From Halomonas sp. GD1P12 (GTDB lineage Bacteria; Pseudomonadota; Gammaproteobacteria; Pseudomonadales; Halomonadaceae): 64,000 nt of DNA. This document shows, one piece after another, positions 35,701-45,982 of this stretch; the stretch's first letter is position 1, and every line of letters starts with the position of its first letter. The notes beneath the pieces were generated by a model that did not search any database, was not told where the DNA came from, and saw nothing but the letters and a program-made list of their open reading frames with translations. The position numbers were made by a program, and so were the translations under genes. The stretch lies in the NCBI RefSeq assembly GCF_025725645.1, contig NZ_CP107007.1:2480001-2544000 (forward strand). The letters are read 5' to 3'.

Positions 35701-36421
35701 CGGGCCGGGGCCGGGCACCTTTCTGCACGGCCTGCTCGAGTGGGCGGGCCGCGCCGGCTTTCAGGCCGCACTCGATGATGACGAGGCCTTCGGGGACATG
35801 CTCTGGCGCCGGGTGCAGCTTCGCGGCTGGCAGGTGTGGCAGGCGCCGCTTTCCGGCTGGCTAAAGGCGCTTTTAGCCACGCCCCTGCCGCTTGGTGGGG
35901 CGCAAAGCGTGGCGCTGACCGAGCTCAGTGATTACCAGGTGGAGCTCGAGTTCTGGCTGGCCGCGAAAGCGGTGGATACCCGCCGGATCGACGCGCTGGT
36001 AAGCCGCCACCTGCTACCCGGCCACGCCCGCCCGGCGCTGGACCGCGACACGCTCAACGGCATGCTCAAGGGCTTCATCGACCTGGCCTTCGAGCACGAC
36101 GGCCGCTTTTACGTGCTCGACTGGAAATCCAACTACCTGGGCCCGACGGATGCCGCCTACGAGCAGGAAGCGCTGCGCCAGGCGCTGCTGGAGAAACGCT
36201 ACGACCTGCAGGCCGCGCTCTACCTGCTCGCCCTGCACCGGCTTTTGAAAGCGCGCCTGAGTGACTACGACCCGCACCGCCACTTGGGCGGCTCGCTCAC
36301 CGTGTTCCTGCGCGGCAGTTCGAGCCAGGGCCGGGGCGTGTACGCCGAGCCCGCGCCCATCGCGCTGATCGAGGCGCTGGACGCCCTGTTCACCGGCGCC
36401 CAGCAGGAGGCCACCGTATGA
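32765..36421 (+). CDS. recB: exodeoxyribonuclease V, beta subunit
   Basis: The RecB 3'-5' helicase and nuclease, about 1218 residues. Walker A is EASAGTGKTFTI (about 21-32); other helicase motifs are VALIDEFQDTDPVQY, STNFRSTRAMV, VTIHKSKGLEYPLVF and LYVALTRARHATW. The C-terminal nuclease has GTFLHGLLEW, GFIDLAFEHDGRFYVLDWKSNYLG (metal residues D and K of DWKSN). It unwinds and degrades linear DNA until Chi, then loads RecA. The ATG at 32765 has a CCGGAGA site; an upstream in-frame start at 32687 would add residues unlike the family. It overlaps recD by 4 bases (ATGA). Confidence 0.96.
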   Translation: MSQPAPLDPLGLPLHGSRLIEASAGTGKTFTIALLYVRLVLGGHSQEDDTAYPRPLTPPEILVVTFTNAATQELRERIRARLVEAAAVFRGAQNDDLLCELRAQYDEGAWPACARRLELAAEWMDEAAVSTIHSWCYRMLREHAFDSGSLFSLNLENDQRELEQEVVRDYWRTFYYPLDIEALAHITRYWKAPKELHETLSRLLAECEALGEPRPAPQTTLAAVEAQKYEALAALKAPWPQWLDELVPALEDAAKAKAFKGQSFNAKSRANWLGALKEWAQSDQERPALTDSAWKRLTPEGMAEIWIEGEPPCPEAWQALAALKPALDRLPEPYSDLLIHAVQWCKVRLEREQQRRAEMGPTELLTHLDRALKGPNREALAAQIRRQFPVALIDEFQDTDPVQYRIFDAVYQVATQRRDSAILLIGDPKQAIYAFRGADIFTYLQARQDTDGRHVTLSTNFRSTRAMVEAVNHCFRYADAHPRGAFLFRDEHGDNPLPFLPVEARGRNEQLVHEGAPLAAMTLWPLSSDEPLSKSAYQTEMAERCASHMAALLEAGRRGQSGFQSEQGLTPLKPSDMAVLVNGLSEARAIRLALSSRGVKSVYLSDHDKVFASPMAAQVERWLRACAEPLASSRQAEAHLRAALATPALGLSLAELDHLQQNELAWEARVVQFGHYHRLWQRQGVLPLVRRLMADFEIPARLLAEFEDGERLLTDLLHLGELLQQASQELDGEHALIRFLMEAIADPNSQNDSHKLRLESDADLVKVVTIHKSKGLEYPLVFLPFIQNHRPVKADDLPLRWHDGDGQLRLSLNADEEILTIAERERLGEDLRKLYVALTRARHATWLGLAPLKEGEASAMGYLLNAGQPIAPAALATALEALAKGSDIHVAEPPAPTALRLAPALDSETLGHARVPTRPAREHWWIASYSALRLSGTLTAPSSAPLEPTTAQEATAFEVLNEPQDLAEPQAFHLHKFPRGPGPGTFLHGLLEWAGRAGFQAALDDDEAFGDMLWRRVQLRGWQVWQAPLSGWLKALLATPLPLGGAQSVALTELSDYQVELEFWLAAKAVDTRRIDALVSRHLLPGHARPALDRDTLNGMLKGFIDLAFEHDGRFYVLDWKSNYLGPTDAAYEQEALRQALLEKRYDLQAALYLLALHRLLKARLSDYDPHRHLGGSLTVFLRGSSSQGRGVYAEPAPIALIEALDALFTGAQQEATV

Positions 36422-38682
36422 GCCGCAAGGACACGCAGACCTTCGATCTTTTCGATGCGCCGGATGAGCCCGCCACGCATGAGCCAAGCGCCCCAGCCGC
36501 ACCGCACGCCGCGCTTTTTGACCCTCAGGCGCTGCTCGATCTGCTCGAGCGCTGGGTGGCGCGGGGCTGGCTGCGCGACCTGGACCGGGCGCTGGCGCGC
36601 TTTCTGCTGACGGAAGCCCCGGACGCCCCGGCGCTGTTGCTGCTGGCGGCGGCGCTTGCCAGCCACCAGCTCGGCCGTGGGCACGTGTGCCTGGAGTTGG
36701 CCGCCACGCTGGACGCGCCGGATTTCGCGCTGTCGCTGCCGCCGGAAGGCGACGACCTGATCGAGCCGCCGCTGCTGCCAAGCGCGCTGCTCGAAACGCT
36801 AACGCTTGCCCAGTGGCAGGCCGCGCTCGATCACCCGCTGCTGGTAAGCTACGGCCCTGGCAACACGCCACTGGTCGCCAGCGCCACGCGCCTTTATCTG
36901 CGCCGTTTTTGGCAGTACGAGCAGACCCTGCACGCGGAAATCGCCACCCGCCTCACCGCAAACGAAGATGTATTTGAGCAGGCTAATACGGGTAGGAGCC
37001 CAGTTCACTGGGCGATGGATGACGCCAGTCATCCCGATCACGCCACAGCAACTAACCTTCTTTCCCGGGCCCTAAACACCCTCTTCACTAATACCCAAAC
37101 CCTGGACTGGCAAAAAACCGCCTGTGCGCTGGCCGCACGGCGCCGCTTCGCCGTGATTACCGGCGGCCCCGGCACGGGCAAGACCACCACCGTGGTGCGC
37201 CTGCTCGCGCTGCTGCAAACCCTGCGGTTGTCCCACGCCCCGGCGGAGCCGCTACGCATCCGCCTGGCCGCCCCCACCGGCAAGGCCGCCGCGCGGCTCA
37301 ATGAGTCCATCGCCGGCCAGGTCAGCGGCTTGCCCACCGCCTCGCTCGAGGCGCTGCTGGGCGAGCACTTTGATGGCGCGCTAGACGGCGCCATCCCTAC
37401 CGAGGTCACCACCCTTCACCGGCTACTGGGTGCGCGCCCCGACACCCGCCACTTCCGCCACGGCCCGCACAACCCGCTCGCACTCGACGTGCTGGTAATC
37501 GACGAAGCCTCGATGGTGGATATCGAAATGATGACCGCCGTGCTCAGCGCCCTGCCCGCAAACGCCCAGCTGGTGCTGCTGGGCGACAAGGATCAGCTCG
37601 CCTCGGTCGAGGCCGGCGCGGTGCTCGGCGAGCTGTGCCGCCGCGCCGAGGCCGCCCACTACACCAGGGCGACCGCCGCCTGGCTCGAAGCCGCCACCGG
37701 CCAGCCGATACCGGAGGCCTTCATCGACGAGCAGGGCCAACCGCTGGACCAGACGATCACCATGCTGCGGGTCAGCCACCGCTTCAATGAGCAAAGCGGC
37801 ATCGGCCAGCTCGCCCAGGCGATCAACCAGCCCGGCGACGCCATGAGCGAGCGTGACAAACAGCAGGCGGTGAACCAGCTACTGCGCCAGGGCTACCCGG
37901 ATGTACAGCACCGCGTGCTGGGCGGCGCGAGCGAAGGCGATGCCGCGCTTGACGCGCTGGTGATCGACGGCAGCCCCGCGGGCTTTGCGCAAAATGGCGA
38001 AGGCCGCACCGATCACAAGGGTAACCCCGTGGCCCCGCCCACCGGCTACCGCCACTATTTGAGCGTGCTCAAGGCCCAGCGCCCCGAAGGCGCCTCCTTC
38101 GAGGCGGACCCGGGCGCATTCGACGCCTGGGCCGGCCAGGTGCTGACCGCTTACGGGCGCTTTCAGCTTCTGTGCGCGCTGCGCAAGGGCCCCTGGGGCG
38201 TGGAAGGGTTGAATCCGCGCATCGCTCATACTCTTCGCCGCAACGGGTGGCTAAGTGCCAACGACGTGACGCTGGAGAAAGGCTGGTACGAGGGCCGCCC
38301 GGTGCTGGTCACCCAGAACGACTATGCGCTAAAACTGATGAACGGCGACATCGGCATCACGCTGGCCGTGCCCGCCCCGCGCGCGCCCGGCCAGTCGCTG
38401 CTACGCGTTGCGTTTCCAACGAGCGACCCGGCCCACCCCATCCGCTGGGTGCTGCCCTCGCGCCTGCACTCGGTGGAAACCGTGTTCGCGATGACGGTAC
38501 ACAAATCCCAGGGCTCGGAGTTCGTCCACACGGCACTCCTGCTGCCCGCCACGATCAACCCGATTCTAACGCGCGAACTCGTCTATACCGGCATCACCCG
38601 CGCCCGCGAGTGGCTGACCGTGGTGGAAGCCAAGCGCGGCATTTTGAATGAGGCGGTGGTGCGGGAAGTCATGCGGGCTTGA
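36418..38682 (+). CDS. recD: exodeoxyribonuclease V, alpha subunit
   Basis: The RecD 5'-3' helicase subunit, 754 residues against about 608 in E. coli. Walker A is ITGGPGTGKTTT (about 247-258), Walker B LVIDEASMVD, and later motifs are VTQNDYALKLMNGDIG, MTVHKSQGSEFVH and YTGITRAREWLTVV. The extra length is mostly in the region before the helicase core and in an insert after FNEQSGIGQLAQAI. It speeds the holoenzyme and is needed for nuclease control. The start overlaps the recB stop (ATGA), so translation is coupled. A stretch at about 36963-37120 uses AT-richer codons than the rest of the gene. Confidence 0.96.
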   Translation: MSRKDTQTFDLFDAPDEPATHEPSAPAAPHAALFDPQALLDLLERWVARGWLRDLDRALARFLLTEAPDAPALLLLAAALASHQLGRGHVCLELAATLDAPDFALSLPPEGDDLIEPPLLPSALLETLTLAQWQAALDHPLLVSYGPGNTPLVASATRLYLRRFWQYEQTLHAEIATRLTANEDVFEQANTGRSPVHWAMDDASHPDHATATNLLSRALNTLFTNTQTLDWQKTACALAARRRFAVITGGPGTGKTTTVVRLLALLQTLRLSHAPAEPLRIRLAAPTGKAAARLNESIAGQVSGLPTASLEALLGEHFDGALDGAIPTEVTTLHRLLGARPDTRHFRHGPHNPLALDVLVIDEASMVDIEMMTAVLSALPANAQLVLLGDKDQLASVEAGAVLGELCRRAEAAHYTRATAAWLEAATGQPIPEAFIDEQGQPLDQTITMLRVSHRFNEQSGIGQLAQAINQPGDAMSERDKQQAVNQLLRQGYPDVQHRVLGGASEGDAALDALVIDGSPAGFAQNGEGRTDHKGNPVAPPTGYRHYLSVLKAQRPEGASFEADPGAFDAWAGQVLTAYGRFQLLCALRKGPWGVEGLNPRIAHTLRRNGWLSANDVTLEKGWYEGRPVLVTQNDYALKLMNGDIGITLAVPAPRAPGQSLLRVAFPTSDPAHPIRWVLPSRLHSVETVFAMTVHKSQGSEFVHTALLLPATINPILTRELVYTGITRAREWLTVVEAKRGILNEAVVREVMRA

Positions 38683-38799
38683 TCCGTATAGCGGGCAAGG
38701 TTAAAACACTTACGGTCGAGCGCACGGGAACGGCGCTTGGCATTAAAAAACCCGCTTTAATCGAGGCGGTACAACGCGATCAACGCAAGGGATTTGCCA

Positions 38800-39555
38800 A
38801 TGAAGTATCAAAAACGGATGGGCCACATGGGGCGTCAGGCTTTTTCCCTGCTGTCGCGGCTTGGCCGCCACGAACTGGCCCTGCTGCTGTGCCTGGCGAT
38901 CATTTCCGGCGGCATTTGGGGCTTCGTCGCGCTGGCGGGTGAAGTCATCGAGGGCGACACCCAGAGCTTCGACGAGCGCCTGCTGCTCGCCCTTCGCAAC
39001 CCCGCCGACCTGAACGACCCGATCGGCCCGGGCTGGGTCGAGGAGATGGGCCGGGACTTCACCGCGCTCGGCGGCGTGGGCGTGCTGGTAATGCTCACGC
39101 TGGGGGCGCTTGGGTATCTGCTACTCGCCAAACACTTTCGCGCCGCACTCTTCGCGCTGGTGGCGGTGCCCGGCGGCATTTTGCTCAGCACCGTGATGAA
39201 GCTGGGTTTTGATCGCCCCCGCCCGGATCTTGTGCCCCACGAAGCCATGGTCTACACCGCGAGCTTTCCCAGCGGCCACTCCATGATGTCCGCCGTGACG
39301 TATCTCACGCTGGCCGCCCTCCTCATCCGCATCCAGCCCGCGCTGCGCCTGAAAGCGTACCTGTTGATACTGGCGATACTGCTGACCCTGCTGGTGGGCG
39401 CAAGCCGCGTTTATCTCGGCGTTCACTGGCCGACCGACGTGCTCGCCGGCTGGACCGCCGGCGCGTGCTGGGCCGCGATTTGCTGGGGCGTGATGCACTG
39501 GATGCAGGGCCGCGGGCAGATTGAGAAGGAAGAGAGTGAGGCGAGCAGCGAATAG
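38800..39555 (+). CDS. PAP2-family membrane phosphatase
   Basis: A 251-residue phosphatidic-acid-phosphatase type 2 protein with about six helices. The three catalytic motifs are intact: KLGFDRPRP (C1), FPSGHSMMSAV (C2) and SRVYLGVHWPTDVLAGW (C3, catalytic His and Asp). The family dephosphorylates phosphatidate, undecaprenyl pyrophosphate or similar lipids at the outer face of the inner membrane. The ATG at 38800 has CAAGGGAT upstream and opens the mature-looking start MKYQKRMG. The 3' third of the gene (from 39190) is repeated at 40321-40644 downstream. Confidence 0.9.
   Translation: MKYQKRMGHMGRQAFSLLSRLGRHELALLLCLAIISGGIWGFVALAGEVIEGDTQSFDERLLLALRNPADLNDPIGPGWVEEMGRDFTALGGVGVLVMLTLGALGYLLLAKHFRAALFALVAVPGGILLSTVMKLGFDRPRPDLVPHEAMVYTASFPSGHSMMSAVTYLTLAALLIRIQPALRLKAYLLILAILLTLLVGASRVYLGVHWPTDVLAGWTAGACWAAICWGVMHWMQGRGQIEKEESEASSE
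39190..39555 (+). repeat. copy A of the duplicated PAP2 3' region
   Basis: This 366-base part of the intact PAP2 gene is the counterpart of 40321-40644 (324 bases). Both begin at ACCGTGATGAAG and run to the stop codon. The second copy lacks 42 internal bases and has scattered substitutions, mostly at third positions. The DUF1993 gene lies between the copies on the other strand. Confidence 0.85.
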
Positions 39556-39653
39556 CCCGACCTTGATGCGGGAACGGGTGTAGACCGACATCACCCGCGC
39601 CCACGAACGGCTGCCCCTCAAGAAGCCAAGGGCTACGCCGCCAAACCAGCCGC

Positions 39654-40220
39654 TTAGCCTTTGGGCAGCGTTTCAGGGCGAATATAGGGAAACAGGTGCG
39701 CGACATAATCGGCCTTCCCAAGCTCGACCTTCTCGCTGCGCAAGATGGAATAGGCGGTCATGATGTGGAAGTAGAACTGCCCCAGCGTCCAATCACGGGC
39801 ATACTGCTCGGCGGTTAAATCGAGAATCATACCGTTGGGCAGCTCGTGCACTAACGGCTTATCCGCCTGGGCATCCAGCGCATCAAAAGCCAGGCCGCTG
39901 AGCAAGGCGAGGGTTTCCTCAATACGCGCCTGCGCCTCTGCAAACGTTCCAGGGCTCTCACCGGCATTTCGTCCCTCGTCGAGCATTTCCTTGATAGAAG
40001 CCGGTAGCGCCTCACCCTGCAACCGGTGAACGGCCTCTTGCGCCTGCACGCAAGCAAACCGCACCTGCGTCGACAGTGGGAACATATCCGGCGCAAGCCG
40101 CGCGGAGAGCAGCGCTTGTGCCTCGTCATCCGGCAGCTGGCTTTGGGCCTTCTTTAACCAGTTGGAAAGCGCGCCCAGCATTTGGGTGTAAGTGGGTACC
40201 AGCAGCTGCGTTAGTGACAT
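39654..40220 (-). CDS. DUF1993 domain protein
   Basis: A 188-residue soluble, mostly helical protein of the DUF1993 family: LTQLLVPTYTQMLGALSNWL at the start, the FPLSTQVRFACVQAQEAVHRL helix, and QFYFHIMTAYSILRSEKVELGKADY near the end. The four-helix layout is like DinB proteins, and metal binding or thiol transfer has been proposed for relatives; no function is established. The ATG at 40220 has AGGAAGAGTATCC upstream. The longer frame to 40379 runs into the repeated PAP2 sequence on the opposite strand and is not real. The gene is enclosed by the two PAP2 copies. Confidence 0.85.
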   Translation of the reverse strand: MSLTQLLVPTYTQMLGALSNWLKKAQSQLPDDEAQALLSARLAPDMFPLSTQVRFACVQAQEAVHRLQGEALPASIKEMLDEGRNAGESPGTFAEAQARIEETLALLSGLAFDALDAQADKPLVHELPNGMILDLTAEQYARDWTLGQFYFHIMTAYSILRSEKVELGKADYVAHLFPYIRPETLPKG

Positions 40221-40320
40221 GGATACTCTTCCTTTGAATCGGTAATCGACGAATGGTCGCAATGGCGAGGGTTCTTTATAAACGTGAGTGATTACGAATG
40301 GTAGCCACCAAGCCGATTGC

Positions 40321-40644
40321 ACCGTGATGAAGTTGGGCTTTGGACGCCCCCGCCCGGATCTGGTGCCCCACGAAGCCATGGTCTACACCGCGAACTTTCC
40401 CAGCGGCCACTCCATGATGTCCGGCGTGACGTATCTTACGCTGGCTGCCCTGCTTATCTTGGCGATACTGCTGGCGCTGCTGGTGGGCGCAAGCCGCGTT
40501 TATCTGGGCGTTCACTGGCCGACCAACATACTCGCCGGCTGGACTGCCGGTGCGAACTGGGCGGCGATCTGCTGGGGCGTGATGCACTGGATGCAGGGGC
40601 GTGGGCAGATTGAGAAGGAAGCGCGTGAGGCGAGCAACGAATAA
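40321..40644 (+). pseudogene. truncated duplicate of the PAP2 phosphatase gene
   Basis: The frame corresponds to residues about 131-251 of the PAP2 protein at 38800-39555, but the first 130 residues and their helices are missing. Fourteen residues between the second and third motifs are also lost (42 bases). The C1 motif reads KLGFGRPRP, Asp to Gly, and the C3 motif has HWPTN instead of HWPTD, losing a conserved acidic residue. An in-frame start 33 bases upstream (40288) gives a 118-residue frame, yet the protein could not form the phosphatase fold. I call it a decaying duplicate. Confidence 0.85.
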
Positions 40645-40656
40645 CCCGCTTCAAAC

Positions 40657-40693
40657 AAATATAGGGCAACACGGTGTGCATTGCCCTGTATTT
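40657..40693. terminator. inverted repeat at the edge of the AT-rich cassette
   Basis: A 13-bp inverted repeat with one mismatch (40657-40669 with 40681-40693; core AGGGCAA/TTGCCCT) has an 11-base loop and an AT-rich outer stem. It lies 13 bases after the PAP2 fragment and before the AT-rich genes. It may terminate transcripts from either side, or mark the cassette boundary. From 40694 to 40835 nothing else is seen. Confidence 0.4.
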
Positions 40694-40835
40694 GGAAATG
40701 TATATTTGGGGTGAGTGTTTTTTCAAGGGGGGTCAGCTTTCGTCCAAATGCAGCCGTTTAAATAGCTCTGGTGTAACGCTCTTTAGTATTTCAGACCGAA
40801 AAGGAGTTAATAACCTTACTTTAAAAGGTGTTTCA

Positions 40836-42194
40836 TCAAGCTCCAAGTGAGTCTCGCAATAGCTTTAACTTATCGCTTGATGCTACAATCTTATTGTTTA
40901 TTACCGCTTGCTCATATAAAATAACTAAGTCGTTTAAATCTTCTTTTTTCATCAACCCTTTATTTTTGGCGGACTTGGCGGTTTCTATAATCTTAAGCAC
41001 TAATAGTTGTGATCGTACGTTACTAACCCTTTCGATAAGAAAAAATGCTTGAGCATTCGTGGGGTTTTTCTCTACTTTACACCAGAAGTATTCCATCGCC
41101 TCTACGATACCGAAGCAGCCTTTTTCAAATCGAACAGCAGAAATATATATATCCAAGATAATATTCTTAGAAAAAACATTCGTTAACCATGGTGCCAAAG
41201 AAAGCTCTATAAACTTTCTTCGATAGGTTTTTTGCAAATCTGAAATAAACAGTGTCCTTATTACCTGCTGCACGATAGTTGAGCCTCCGGACCTCGGTTT
41301 TATTTTGACTAGACCGAGAATGCTTCGTAAAATTGACTTATAATTAATTCCGTTATGATTATAGAACCTTCTATCCTCAATATGAATAAGAAAATCTTTA
41401 ATCCTCTTAGTTTTTATTCCTAGTCTTTCCGTTTCATAGAAAGAAAGCTTTGCTCGATAAATTATATATTCAATATTTTCTACGAGAGGTAAACCAATGG
41501 CCTTAGCCAAGAGCCTATAAAAAATTAATCTAGACGTTTCATGCACATCTAACAAAGAAGTTCTATAAACTAGCATTGTAGCGACAAACCAAATGATAGC
41601 GCAGCAAGCTATAAATGCGCCGGTAGAAATTTGGTTAAAAACATTTTGGTTTTGTTTAACCAGGTTAGCGATCAAAAAAAACACTACCGAGGTGGATATA
41701 ATTGAGACAATCCAAAACGGGTAAGCAACATAAGTAAACCATCCTGGAAACAGACGGACGGCTAATGGTTGGTCAGCGCCCTCAACTCTCCAATTAGGCA
41801 ATAGTAGTTGTATCCTACCGTAACTGAGACCAAGCATTCTTCTTAAAACAATGACTTTTCGACCTGAGAAAACTATGGATCTTTGCCGATCAGAAAAATA
41901 CTTGAGTGTGACAAACGAAAACCCTGATATTATTAATAATAATATAATGGAGATAATATAAGGTGGTATTATACCCTCAAAAACTGACGCTAGTCGGTCT
42001 GATGAACCGACTAGCAGCGAGCCCAATGCTGCTGAAGAAACGAGAGACACATTCGAGGCATTAAGAAAAACACGTTCTTCCGACTCTAAATTTTTAGCTG
42101 CTACTTTATATTCCTCTAGGGCAATATCGCGATCTTCGAAGTGGTAAGTCGGAAAGTGCTGTCGCCAACCATTTTTATAATCTTCCTCTATCAA
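40836..42194 (-). CDS. membrane protein with stand-alone GT51 peptidoglycan glycosyltransferase domain
   Basis: 452 residues. Four hydrophobic segments (about 47-64, 75-98, 149-179, 189-210) precede a GT51 domain (about 255-400). Its motifs are intact: EDRRFYNHNG (273-282, catalytic E273), GGSTIVQQ (303-310), RRKFIE (325-330, E330) and KNIILDIY followed by FGIVEAMEYFW (343-371). No transpeptidase domain follows; instead there is a Lys-rich helical tail. The loop at 99-148 is Arg/Lys rich, so the positive-inside rule puts the GT51 domain in the cytoplasm, opposite to normal penicillin-binding proteins. It starts at TTG 42194 with AAGGAA 6 bases upstream. Base composition is far more AT-rich than the neighbours, which indicates transfer. 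It follows the 290-residue gene on the same strand. Confidence 0.8.
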   Translation of the reverse strand: MIEEDYKNGWRQHFPTYHFEDRDIALEEYKVAAKNLESEERVFLNASNVSLVSSAALGSLLVGSSDRLASVFEGIIPPYIISIILLLIISGFSFVTLKYFSDRQRSIVFSGRKVIVLRRMLGLSYGRIQLLLPNWRVEGADQPLAVRLFPGWFTYVAYPFWIVSIISTSVVFFLIANLVKQNQNVFNQISTGAFIACCAIIWFVATMLVYRTSLLDVHETSRLIFYRLLAKAIGLPLVENIEYIIYRAKLSFYETERLGIKTKRIKDFLIHIEDRRFYNHNGINYKSILRSILGLVKIKPRSGGSTIVQQVIRTLFISDLQKTYRRKFIELSLAPWLTNVFSKNIILDIYISAVRFEKGCFGIVEAMEYFWCKVEKNPTNAQAFFLIERVSNVRSQLLVLKIIETAKSAKNKGLMKKEDLNDLVILYEQAVINNKIVASSDKLKLLRDSLGA

Positions 42195-42314
42195 TCTAAT
42201 TTCCTTATAAAATTTAAAAATATGTTAAACAGCTCATTATAATTTTATTGCCTTATTAGCATGTTAGCTTGCGGTCGTCAACTGCCTCAGCCGTTCTATC
42301 AGCTTATATTACGG

Positions 42315-43187
42315 TTAAGTGCCATCTGCTATGTCCTTGAATTTCCCTTCAAGACGCCAGATTGTTGATTTGTGATCTTCGAATTTACCACCAATTTCTA
42401 ATCCGGTCTTACTAATTGCTGCCTTTAATCCAGCATTGACACCGAAATCATCTTCATAGGATACAGATAGAGAAAAATCTTGGAGACCATAACTTTTTCG
42501 GCCTTTAGCAATAGACTGCCAAGTTGGTTCATGTTCATACCAAACCAAATCTTTAGGGATTGATGGTGTTACAGCTCCTGATAGCCTCGCCTCAAAAAGT
42601 AGTTGTGATCCGGATTTTGATGATGATGCAGCTTCAGCCCCCACCTTACTTTCGGCTTCCCCTAGTGGTACTGAAATACGGCTAGAGAAATCTCTTGACC
42701 AACCGCTAACGTGCTCAACGCGAATTGAAGTAGCTCCTAAACTCATAAGTAAATCCGTTGCTTCACAGAATTTGTGTTCAAAAGTGACGCGGTGAAAATC
42801 AGCCAGAGTGTAATAAACTTTAGGCAGTGCGGGATGCCCGATGTAAAGAACACCATCTCGAGGATGGCCCGGAGGAAATGAAAGTAATTTTGCAATCGTA
42901 TTTCCAACCGGTAACACTAAAAGACCATCATCTCGCGCACGCCCCCACGCCTTTATAGCCTCGCGAGTTACTTCCGCTATCGTTCTACCTAGTGAAACAG
43001 GAAGAACATCAAAAACAATCGATTCAGTAATTTTCTTCCAGTCAAGGCCATTTTCACGAAGTTGAACAGCTCTTCGTTCCTCTTGTTCCGCAGCTTTAAC
43101 AATCACATCGTCAGTAACAACAATCAATTGTCTGCTCGAATATGGGAGTTCTAAGAAGCGAGAAAAATTGTTCTCAATGTCATTCAT
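42315..43187 (-). CDS. unrecognised soluble protein, first gene of the AT-rich cassette
   Basis: I do not recognise this 290-residue protein. It has no signal peptide or membrane helix. Residues 25-85 look helical and charged (EQEERRAVQLRENGLDWKKI). Residues 88-135 look mixed (LLVLPVGNTIAKLLSFPPG, VLYIGHPALPKVYYTLADF). A Ser/Ala-rich linker (178-195) is followed by a C-terminal part with alternating beta-strand pattern (DFSLSVSYEDDFGVNAGLKA, then IGGKFEDHKSTIWRLEGKF). That C-terminal strand pattern repeats Gly-Leu-x-x-x-Ile. The ATG at 43187 has AGGA upstream. It is followed after 120 bases by the GT51 gene on the same strand, and a 10-bp inverted repeat lies 54 bases upstream. AT-rich codons as in the next gene. 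Confidence 0.8.
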   Translation of the reverse strand: MNDIENNFSRFLELPYSSRQLIVVTDDVIVKAAEQEERRAVQLRENGLDWKKITESIVFDVLPVSLGRTIAEVTREAIKAWGRARDDGLLVLPVGNTIAKLLSFPPGHPRDGVLYIGHPALPKVYYTLADFHRVTFEHKFCEATDLLMSLGATSIRVEHVSGWSRDFSSRISVPLGEAESKVGAEAASSSKSGSQLLFEARLSGAVTPSIPKDLVWYEHEPTWQSIAKGRKSYGLQDFSLSVSYEDDFGVNAGLKAAISKTGLEIGGKFEDHKSTIWRLEGKFKDIADGT

Positions 43188-43240
43188 TGGTATGAATTCC
43201 TATTGCGCTTAATTAGTAATGGACTTCCTATCTTGTGATT

Positions 43241-43266
43241 GGATAAACGTACCAGCACGTTTATCC
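43241..43266. promoter_or_regulatory. perfect inverted repeat upstream of the AT-rich cassette
   Basis: GGATAAACGT (43241-43250) is repeated inverted as ACGTTTATCC (43257-43266) with a 6-base spacer. No T-run follows on either side. Its position 54-79 bases before the first gene start fits an operator or a regulatory hairpin in the leader. Confidence 0.55.
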
Positions 43267-43661
43267 GTTAAATACAGCCTGCGAAATTTTCTCTAAACAT
43301 TTGAAATAAATAGAAAAAACTAAAATTCAGCTTCATACCTGAAACTTACATTATTGCTGCATTTTTCGGCAATGTTTGCTTTGGGTAGAAAGGTGACATT
43401 TTGTTGAAGCGTTGCTCCCTCTAAAACGCCAACATTACCAGTTAACTTAGGTTAGTCCTACCTCAACGACCTAGCTTTTAGTCGATAGTAAAAGCTCTAC
43501 AACTCGATTGAAGCCCCACTTCATTGCTATCGCTTACCTCACCATAAATCATGCGATGCTACTCATCTGAGCTGTGCCTACTGGTTGATGGCGAAGACAC
43601 AATAGGTGAGCCGAAATCCGCAGCTTCCTCACATGGCGTTAGCTCGGCTGTCTTCGCGCCA
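43267..43661. other. intergenic region without a gene
   Basis: This stretch between the AT-rich cassette and the secreted-protein gene shows no frame with coding character on either strand. The first 80 bases are AT-rich like the cassette; from about 43450 the composition rises toward that of the host. The promoter of the cassette should lie near 43260-43340 on the minus strand. Confidence 0.6.
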
Positions 43662-43689
43662 TTGAATATATTAGCCCCATCTATATTAT
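43662..43689 (+). promoter_or_regulatory. probable sigma-70 promoter of the first small secreted protein
   Basis: TTGAAT (43662-43667), 16-base spacer, TATTAT (43684-43689). The same two boxes at the same spacing, with most flanking bases conserved, precede the paralogous gene (45362-45389). That conservation supports function. Confidence 0.6.
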
Positions 43690-43802
43690 GTTCAGGTTTC
43701 AGCGAGTCACGATGATGCGAGCCGTTTTACTGCCAGTGCGTTTTGTACGCTGAGCCAACCGCCTCGACCCACCGTCAAAGCCATTTCAAAGGAAACCATA
43801 CA

Positions 43803-44297
43803 ATGAAACCCATCGTGATAGTGACGGGCCTGCTGGCGTGCTCTACCACTGCCGCCTTTGCGCAGGATCACATGGATAGCGGCCTGGCTTACTTTCAGGA
43901 CTACTGCCTGAAACCGGGCGGGAAGCTGGAAAAGTCGATAGACCTGTTTTCCAATTCCGACACGTTTGGCAACGAACGCAGCATGGGGTCAGACTTCACC
44001 TATGTCAGCTACACCGGCCCAGACGGCATTAATGCCTCGGTGCTGATCGGCGCCTCATTTACGGACGACAAATGCACCATCATCATGACCGGCGTGGACG
44101 AGCCGATGGTGCAGAGCGAAGCGCTGGCGGCCACCCTGACGGAGACCGCCGGTGCCGAGTTCATGGAGTGGGAGGCGTTCGAGGATTATGGCAACGGCGG
44201 CTTTGGCTATCGCGATGCCCAAGGGGATGTGGTCGTCGCGCCCGTGACCACCGGTATTTCGGATGACATCGTGCATCTGAGCTTCTATCCGAATTGA
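43803..44297 (+). CDS. small secreted protein, paralogue A
   Basis: A 164-residue exported protein I do not recognise. Signal peptide 1-20 ends AFA-QDH; the LLAC at 10-13 is a weak lipobox alternative. Mature domain about 144 residues with two cysteines (C35, C91) that are also in the paralogue and could pair. The conserved opening is SGLAYFQDYCL and the end is YGNGGFGYRDAQG...VVVAPVTTGISDDIVHLSFYP. The paralogue at 45485-45982 is alike over the whole length but nearly identical only in the last 35 residues. The ATG at 43803 has AAAGGAAA. Role unknown; location presumably periplasmic. Confidence 0.8.
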   Translation: MKPIVIVTGLLACSTTAAFAQDHMDSGLAYFQDYCLKPGGKLEKSIDLFSNSDTFGNERSMGSDFTYVSYTGPDGINASVLIGASFTDDKCTIIMTGVDEPMVQSEALAATLTETAGAEFMEWEAFEDYGNGGFGYRDAQGDVVVAPVTTGISDDIVHLSFYPN

Positions 44298-44360
44298 TGG
44301 CGTTGCCCGGTGCGATTTAAGCTCTGATAAGAAGTAACCCGTTCAAATCGAACTGGGCAT

Positions 44361-45056
44361 TTATTGCCTTAGCTGCTCACCCAGCGCAATGAAATTCTCC
44401 GCCACGAAATCCCACGCTTTCTCAGCTTCCAAATCCTTGCTCTGCTGCGGACCATACTCCGTGGGCCGGGGGATGAACGCCGTTTTCAAGCCTAACGCCC
44501 TCGCCGCTCGTAAATCCGCATTATGCGCCGCGCACAGCATCACCTCTTCCGGCGGCAGATTCAGCAGACGGCTCGCGCCGAGATAAACCTCCGCGTCTGG
44601 CTTGTAGTGCTCGAAGAGCTCGGCGCAGAAGATCATGTCCCAAGGCAGTTTGGCGTGGCGGGCAACGTCGACCATCAGCGAGACGTTGCCGTTGGTCAGC
44701 GTGCCGATGATGTAATTCTCTTTCAGACGCGCAAGGCCTGACTGTACGTCCGGCCAGGGCGTAAGGCGGTGCCAGAAGCGGTTGATGCGCTCGATCGTCG
44801 AAGCATCCAGTTTAATGCCGTGTTGATCGAGCAGTTCGACCAGGCTTTCGCGATGCAGGTCATCGAGGTTCGTCCAAGGGCATTCGCCCTTGCGGACCCG
44901 GTCCATCGAAGGCACGTAGCGTCCGCGCCACTGGTCGGTCAGCGTCTCTTTTGGCAACTCGATGCCCAGCTCCTGCTCCAGCTTGCCGAACTGCTGGATC
45001 AGGCTGGTGCGCCAGTCGACCACGGTACCGAATACGTCGAACAGGATCGCTTTCAT
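44361..45056 (-). CDS. haloacid dehalogenase type II (HAD superfamily)
   Basis: A 231-residue HAD hydrolase of the L-2-haloacid dehalogenase type. The nucleophile is D8 in ILFDVFGTVVDW; motif II is GTLTNGN, the lysine is in EHYKPDAEVY, and motif IV reads CAAHNADLRAARALGLKTAFI, the dehalogenase pattern rather than the phosphatase DD. The family converts L-2-haloacids to D-2-hydroxy acids, though many members are annotated without a proven substrate. The ATG at 45056 has AGGAGA upstream. It lies on the opposite strand between the two secreted-protein paralogues, so they are not a simple tandem. Confidence 0.9.
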   Translation of the reverse strand: MKAILFDVFGTVVDWRTSLIQQFGKLEQELGIELPKETLTDQWRGRYVPSMDRVRKGECPWTNLDDLHRESLVELLDQHGIKLDASTIERINRFWHRLTPWPDVQSGLARLKENYIIGTLTNGNVSLMVDVARHAKLPWDMIFCAELFEHYKPDAEVYLGASRLLNLPPEEVMLCAAHNADLRAARALGLKTAFIPRPTEYGPQQSKDLEAEKAWDFVAENFIALGEQLRQ

Positions 45057-45361
45057 TCATGTCTCCTTTTTGGCCTGTTGTTATTTTGAGTCTTGTCAGT
45101 ACGGGGCTGAATTGCGCCCATCGATGACACGATCAGGCTGGTTGAAATGAAAGATAACGTGGCGCTAGGCGTTTCGCTTATTGCGCCTCGGTGACCTGTC
45201 GTCGCGAGCCGAAGCTCTCTCCCATAGAGCATGGTGTGCCTGCGGCTCCTTGAGAGTGTCCTCCAGCTTTTGCGTAGACGCTCATTTTCATCGCGCAGCT
45301 TTACGCCCACCCGTTAGTTGCCGATAGCCCCATATTGCTGCCATGCCGGTTGCGCACGCCG
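45057..45361. other. intergenic region without a gene
   Basis: No coding frame with host-like character is seen between the dehalogenase start and the next promoter. The first 80 bases should contain the dehalogenase promoter on the minus strand. Nothing else is recognised. Confidence 0.5.
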
Positions 45362-45389
45362 TTGAATACATTAGAGTCATCTATATTAT
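45362..45389 (+). promoter_or_regulatory. probable sigma-70 promoter of the second small secreted protein
   Basis: TTGAAT (45362-45367), 16-base spacer, TATTAT (45384-45389). It matches the promoter at 43662-43689 in boxes, spacing and flanks (CATCTATATTAT shared). Confidence 0.6.
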
Positions 45390-45484
45390 TTTCTGGCATC
45401 CAGGATCGCGACGATCAGGTGGTCGTGCAGCCGGCACATCAAGCGCTTCGGGCAGACGTTGGAAGCACTCAAGGGAGAGTCACA

Positions 45485-45982
45485 GTGAAACAGATTTTGA
45501 TAGCGGCGGGCCTGTTGGCATGCGCGACCTCAACGGTTTACGCGCAAGAGCGCACGGATTCCGCGCTTGCCTATTTTCAGGACTACTGCCTTGAAGCGGG
45601 TGGGGATATGCAAAAGTCGATCGCCCTGCTGTCCGCATCCGAGCACTTTGATGCTCCGTTCGACCAAAGCTCAGGCAATTACACCGCGCTGCTGTTCATG
45701 GGATTGGACGGTACCCTTGCCACCGTCACCATCGGGGGCGAGGTGGGGTACGATCGCTGCATTATCACGGCAAGCGGCGTGGCCGACCCGATGGCGCAGA
45801 GCGAAACCTGGGCCGGTATTTTGGCCGATGAGCAGGGCGCCGACTTCACGCAGTTAGCGCCCTTCGATATGTATGGCAACGGCGGCTTTGGCTATCGCGA
45901 TGCCCAGGGGAATGTGGTTGTCGCGCCCGTAACCACCGGTATTTCGGATGACATCGTGCATCTGAGCTTCTACCCGAAGTGA
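45485..45982 (+). CDS. small secreted protein, paralogue B
   Basis: A 165-residue exported protein, paralogue of 43803-44297. Signal peptide 1-20 ends VYA-QER. Cysteines C35 and C92 match C35 and C91 of paralogue A. The N-terminal match is SALAYFQDYCL; the middle differs widely (residues 40-125); the last 35 residues are almost identical, including at third codon positions. It starts with GTG at 45485, supported by GGGAGAG just upstream and by alignment with paralogue A. Function unknown. Confidence 0.8.
   Translation: MKQILIAAGLLACATSTVYAQERTDSALAYFQDYCLEAGGDMQKSIALLSASEHFDAPFDQSSGNYTALLFMGLDGTLATVTIGGEVGYDRCIITASGVADPMAQSETWAGILADEQGADFTQLAPFDMYGNGGFGYRDAQGNVVVAPVTTGISDDIVHLSFYPK

Follow-up and report, generated by a model that had tools for sequence, protein, structure and literature searches.

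A GT51 glycosyltransferase gene in the defence-gene slot downstream of Halomonas recD: a possible inward-facing lipid II polymerase

Two AT-rich genes in a slot downstream of recD

The window analysed is a stretch of 64,000 nucleotides (positions 2480001-2544000) of the 3.78-Mb chromosome of Halomonas sp. GD1P12 (G000), the nearest relatives of which in our searches were Vreelandella/Halomonas. Two genes lie side by side on its minus strand, one encoding a protein of no recognised domain (gene 1) and the other a membrane protein with a GT51 domain. Both were reported in the initial annotation as an AT-rich pair next to a duplicated gene fragment, and this description was confirmed. The GC contents of gene 1 and the GT51 gene are 0.426 and 0.368 (0.29 and 0.34 at third codon positions) versus 0.56-0.65 in the surrounding DNA (PAP2 gene 0.654, PAP2 fragment 0.616 and DUF1993 gene 0.584 on the left; kilobase windows of 0.589 and 0.562 on the right), and the AT-rich stretch extends to about 43740 (GC 0.42). 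The duplicated fragment consists of two blocks copied from the PAP2 gene, 40319-40458 from 39188-39327 at 92% identity and 40460-40648 from 39371-39559 at 90%. Neither gene resembles chance coding, judged by the numbers of homologues at E up to 0.001 (532 for gene 1 and 357 for the GT51 protein) and by dN/dS (0.21 and 0.09, one pair each).

Table 1 Features of the recD-downstream region (coordinates of the window)
Feature	Position	Strand	Remarks
recD, slot anchor	36418..38682	+	
Decayed partial copy of recD 3' end	39568..39633	+	67 alignment columns, 76%
PAP2 gene 3' fragment	40319..40648	+	copy of 39188-39559 of PAP2 gene
Variable slot relative to G601 (L059)	40649..44466		DUF4062 gene there instead
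GT51 membrane protein gene	40836..42194	-	452 aa, TTG start, intact ORF
DNA homology, GT51 gene and G576 copy	40864..42220	-	gene minus last 28 bp, plus 26 bp before start
GT51 domain core	41010..41414	-	residues 261-395; E273, R313, K322, E330 conserved
N-terminal module	41550..42194	-	residues 1-215; AF2 helices 23-71, 78-120, 155-181, 191-213
DNA homology, gene 1 and halomonad relative L002	42305..43213	-	gene plus 10 and 26 bp
Gene 1	42315..43187	-	290 aa, ATG start, intact ORF; unrelated family, no recognised domain

Homology to the G601 genome runs unbroken from 38148 to 40648 and starts again at 44467. The DUF1993 gene, which is flanked by the PAP2 gene and its 3' fragment (38794-40648), lies in DNA where the homology to G601 (L059) is unbroken at 85%. 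Two small proteins that resemble each other and may be secreted are encoded at the slot edge, at 43743-44297 and 45335-45982. Their DNA agrees at 82% of 223 and 73% of 171 alignment columns, and Pfam gave no match for the first protein. The corresponding slot of G601 is filled by an AT-rich gene for a 395-residue DUF4062 protein (L059:5616-6800) that lacks a PADLOC match and is possibly an uncharacterised defence gene.

recD is present in 40 of the 41 genomes of the genus. The DNA on its 3' side (38683-44466 in the window) was compared in 20 genomes picked from the list plus G576 (21 stretches; L039 and L045-L064). At least one ORF of at least 100 residues with a GC content under 47% was present in 18 of these stretches, and the contents differed. 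When one or two AT-rich proteins per slot were tested against PADLOC (1e-8), 10 of the 18 slots gave matches: AbiU (L039), HerA plus DUF4297 (L046), ThsB (L048), a partial Ppl (L050), LmuB (L052 and L058), a type IV restriction enzyme (L054), Drt3b (L060), Drt8 (L062) and a retron reverse transcriptase plus PDC-S21 (L063). The proteins tested from L047, L051, L053, L055, L056, L057, L059 and L061 had no PADLOC match. Among these slots Pfam gave TIR and SLOG domains in L061 and DUF4062 in L059, together with genes of non-defence type, an amino-acid permease in L047 and a glycosyltransferase 2 in L056. A joint scan of 65 AT-rich slot proteins was also made, as a tally without locus assignment. 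The site downstream of recD is a turnover slot for defence genes in this genus.

In 6 of the 21 stretches, parts of the recD 3' end turn up again at a distance downstream, as if modules had arrived with recD tails of their own. The gene order in G576 is recD, the GT51 gene, a recD 3'-end copy and AbiU; the GT51 gene, between recD and the recD copy, forms a module of its own there. AbiU is thus cargo of the same recD site and the next gene past the GT51 gene and recD copy, but its protein is unrelated to the GT51 protein. The GT51 gene occupies recD slots in two genomes, G000 and G576, of the four contexts of the family that were read (G000, G576, G384 and G979). The other relatives lie beside an NYN/OST-HTH protein (G384, L040:8588-9319) or Pfam-less ORFs (G979, L042:9223-12324), in small AT-rich islands in which no common partner was seen.

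Separate occurrence of gene 1 and the GT51 gene

The initial annotation proposed that the two genes form a system in which a soluble sensor acts with a membrane effector. The two are neighbours on the same strand, 120 bp apart and both AT-rich. A pattern scan found no promoter-like site on their strand within the 120-bp gap, and cotranscription is therefore possible; in all, the scan gave 10 promoter-like sites versus 7.1 expected and 6 terminator-like sites versus 2.4 expected. Against the proposal, the GT51 family was absent from the DNA of all 29 external gene-1 loci, three of which are shorter than 6 kb and three of which are near-identical halomonads. Among 275 genomes of the halomonad family the GT51 protein was found in three (G000, G576 and G384) and gene 1 in four (G000, G600, G614 and G633), with both genes together in G000 alone. 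Moreover, G576 carries the GT51 gene in the same slot without gene 1, and outside the homology block given in Table 1 its DNA matches only 38 bp more (43450-43487). With a homology block of its own that stops close to its ends, each of the two genes seems to move independently. The two genes are more likely separate arrivals that landed side by side, the proposed pairing is very probably wrong, and we assign a genuine sensor-effector system only a very slight probability.

Leaving aside gene 1 and what the near-identical halomonad loci share, clustering of the ORFs of the gene-1 loci, in which groups present in at least three loci were considered, gave a single group. This group spans 8 loci, 3 of which are the near-identical halomonads. 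P-loop motifs were found in 10 members examined of its 12, with LSGG-type motifs in 7 of those 10, and we read its members as probable generic ABC-type ATPases lying at varying distances from gene 1. Apart from this loose P-loop ATPase group no conserved partner of gene 1 was found across the diverse loci.

Gene 1 is thus an independent neighbour of the GT51 gene and belongs to a separate, widespread family. Its product went unrecognised in the initial annotation, and it also gave no match in Pfam, NCBIfam, PADLOC or PHROG at E up to 1. Its relatives in named loci come from taxa as far apart as Proteobacteria, Actinobacteria, Firmicutes and Cyanobacteria. The predicted structure is confident (pLDDT 85.9), and structure searches with this model returned no recognisable relative. 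Searches of plasmids and phages found no relatives; one was found in a viral contig (L038). In L002 gene 1 lies near a Lamassu LmuB gene, and the same neighbour is present in L005 and L014. A PADLOC scan (1e-15) of 106 near neighbours from 28 gene-1 loci, given as tallies among 25 of 57 families listed, matched LmuB, ThsB and PDC-S03 in one locus each and the type I methylase, type II methylase, mad2 and mad3 models in two loci each. For comparison, 68 distant genes of the same loci gave one locus each for a type II restriction enzyme and for a type II methylase, and two for mad3; in tallies of this kind, near and distant genes did not differ clearly.

Active site, membrane module and predicted orientation of the GT51 protein

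The assignment of the second gene to GT51 was borne out by a match of residues 263-392 to PF00912 (E 3e-29; 102 bits versus a curated cut-off of 27) and by the active-site residues of motifs I to III. E273 (the catalytic Glu of motif I, which aligns to E100 of the Staphylococcus aureus MGT), R313 and E330 are kept in all 62 aligned relatives, and position 322 is lysine or arginine in all 62. By eye, motifs IV and V differ from what we take to be the canonical GT51 pattern, and these differences could alter the activity. The gene is rare in the sampled genomes and appears to be under purifying selection (dN/dS 0.087 versus G576, a single pair with dS of 1.5, near saturation). PADLOC has no family for the protein at E up to 1, and no relatives were found in viral contigs or, at E up to 1e-30, in plasmids. 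The phage search matched 42 records, none over 80% of the query; coverage was 24-37% among the 20 matches listed. Some metagenomic members (P0249, P0252, P0261 and P0266) break off prematurely, either close to where the GT51 domain begins or inside the membrane module, and are decayed copies or assembly errors. Inside the coding sequence near its 5' end, the minus strand of 41988-42016 has a terminator-like 12-pair stem followed by a T-rich tail, which could be chance or an attenuator.

The S. aureus MGT (PDB 3vmq) shares the GT51 fold, the active-site positions and a transmembrane helix directly preceding the domain, with 21% identity over the aligned part. MGT has a single N-terminal transmembrane helix and faces out, whereas the domain of the 452-residue protein follows a segment of about 215 residues in which four membrane helices are predicted, and its charges suggest the cytosol. 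A search with the N-terminal module alone, the length window of which leaves out full-length members, returned 37 proteins. Five are known or named GT51 proteins with PF00912, and the other 32 match the family profile and have at most 62 residues beyond that match (the maximum being in P0249). At the sensitivity used, this search found no fusion of the module to another effector, and GT51 was its sole partner domain. A structure search of the membrane part (VIA-align) gave helical bundles, including designed proteins and XPR1, and no clear relative.

The helix layout of the N-terminal half prompted us to consider that it might be a SLATT domain, the layout of which is 2TM, and this identity was rejected. 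No SLATT match was found in Pfam or NCBIfam at E up to 1 or in 45 family members scanned at 0.05, and hhalign gave a probability of 0.5% against a single SLATT_5 protein, the comparison being limited to one protein because only 1 of 114 genomes had a SLATT match. According to the predicted model the protein shares with the SLATT 2TM effectors of conflict systems a hairpin of two long helices, but it differs in adding two further helices and the GT51 domain.

Charge distribution was used to predict which side of the membrane the GT51 domain faces (means over 62 members). Residues 101-152 contain 8.3 lysines plus arginines with a net charge of +5.0, helices 153-178 and 191-210 are practically uncharged, and residues 211-260 and 261-395 have net charges of +2.7 and +10.3. 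The short loops 72-77 and 179-190 contain 0.1 and 1.0 lysines plus arginines. Since two hydrophobic helices come between the 101-152 loop and the GT51 domain, both should lie on one side of the membrane, whether or not the first helix crosses, and by the positive-inside rule their positive charge points to the cytosolic side. In the comparable stretch the two other GT51 proteins of this genome have charges of +11/-14 and +18/-15. Note that the positive-inside rule is statistical and that the GT51 domain could owe its basic character to something else. Moreover, a cytosolic N-terminus (residues 1-47; net -4.1) would agree poorly with the rule. The first helix is marginally hydrophobic (best 19-mer mean 1.43). 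With a hydropathy cut-off of 1.4 we counted four helices in 33, three in 24 and five in 5 of the 62 members, and with a cut-off of 1.2 five in 38, four in 17 and six in 7. The most common count at 1.2 is odd, which would argue against an inward orientation; the hydropathy count is not decisive. That the GT51 domain faces the cytosol is thus no more than a prediction, reasoned from the charge distribution.

Possible functions of the GT51 protein

The initial annotation had suggested for the pair a role as a defence or toxin system, with abortive damage to lipid II or peptidoglycan as a plausible effect. The pair part of this proposal fell, and a putative defence role of the GT51 protein through action on lipid II gains support from its location in the recD slot, which turns over defence genes. 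Our preferred reading, which we hold tentatively and at somewhat less than even probability, is that the GT51 gene is single-gene mobile cargo of the recD defence slot and encodes an inward-facing lipid II polymerase with anti-phage function. More speculative is the reading as an inside-out peptidoglycan glycosyltransferase, a mobile single-gene immune effector that would make unusable glycan from unflipped lipid II and thereby halt wall synthesis in the infected cell; this we regard as possible and somewhat doubtful. Lipid II is made by MurG and lies on the inner leaflet until it is flipped. In our preferred reading the protein would be triggered, most likely in phage infection and through its conserved N-terminal segment together with the loop at 101-152, and the GT51 domain would then polymerise lipid II on the inner leaflet. 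The polymer would be unusable by the flippase and the wall machinery, the undecaprenyl carrier and precursors would be trapped, and this putative toxicity would stop growth before phage release. Consumption of inner-leaflet lipid II would explain why the gene of a wall polymerase travels by itself as mobile cargo of a defence slot.

The protein could instead be a horizontally acquired accessory peptidoglycan synthase of the ordinary, outward-facing kind, which would reinforce or mend the wall, perhaps in response to phage lysins or some other stress. To our knowledge the known peptidoglycan glycosyltransferases, GT51 enzymes included, act outside the membrane and none encounters lipid II on the inner leaflet. 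Were the helix number odd, for instance with a weakly hydrophobic first helix that does not cross, the domain would lie in the periplasm, and odd counts are common at both cut-offs. The retained active-site residues also fit such a synthase. However, this requires the strongly positive 101-152 loop and GT51 region to lie outside, and the gene occupies a slot that turns over defence genes. We consider this reading unlikely, though it deserves real weight.

The division of labour could also be the reverse, with the membrane module as the effector, forming a pore or leak, and the GT51 domain as a sensor of lipid II or of a phage-altered envelope precursor. The two long helices resemble the SLATT layout, and in one paper (PMC7159879) SLATT figures as a predicted pore-forming effector. 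The failed SLATT comparisons argue against this, and a mere sensor would not require so strict a conservation of the active site; we judge this reading improbable. Neutral or selfish cargo, kept by chance at a recombination-prone site, would account for the patchy distribution of the gene in a slot that also holds non-defence genes, but the apparent purifying selection and the conserved active-site positions speak against it, and we give it little credence.

Titles and abstract beginnings in the open-access literature yielded no paper that places a GT51 protein in phage defence and none about the halomonad recD slot, and the main text of the DefensePredictor paper (PMC13092281) does not mention transglycosylase, peptidoglycan, glycosyltransferase, lipid II or penicillin-binding. 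If the predicted orientation is true, the protein would be the first GT51 enzyme known to us that meets lipid II on the inner leaflet. Intracellular consumption of lipid II would then be a new route to abort infection, and the gene would provide a genetic handle on the consequences of polymerising unflipped lipid II. With an outward-facing enzyme, too, a wall polymerase as the lone cargo of a defence slot is unexpected, and the site downstream of recD is a useful place to seek new halomonad defence genes.
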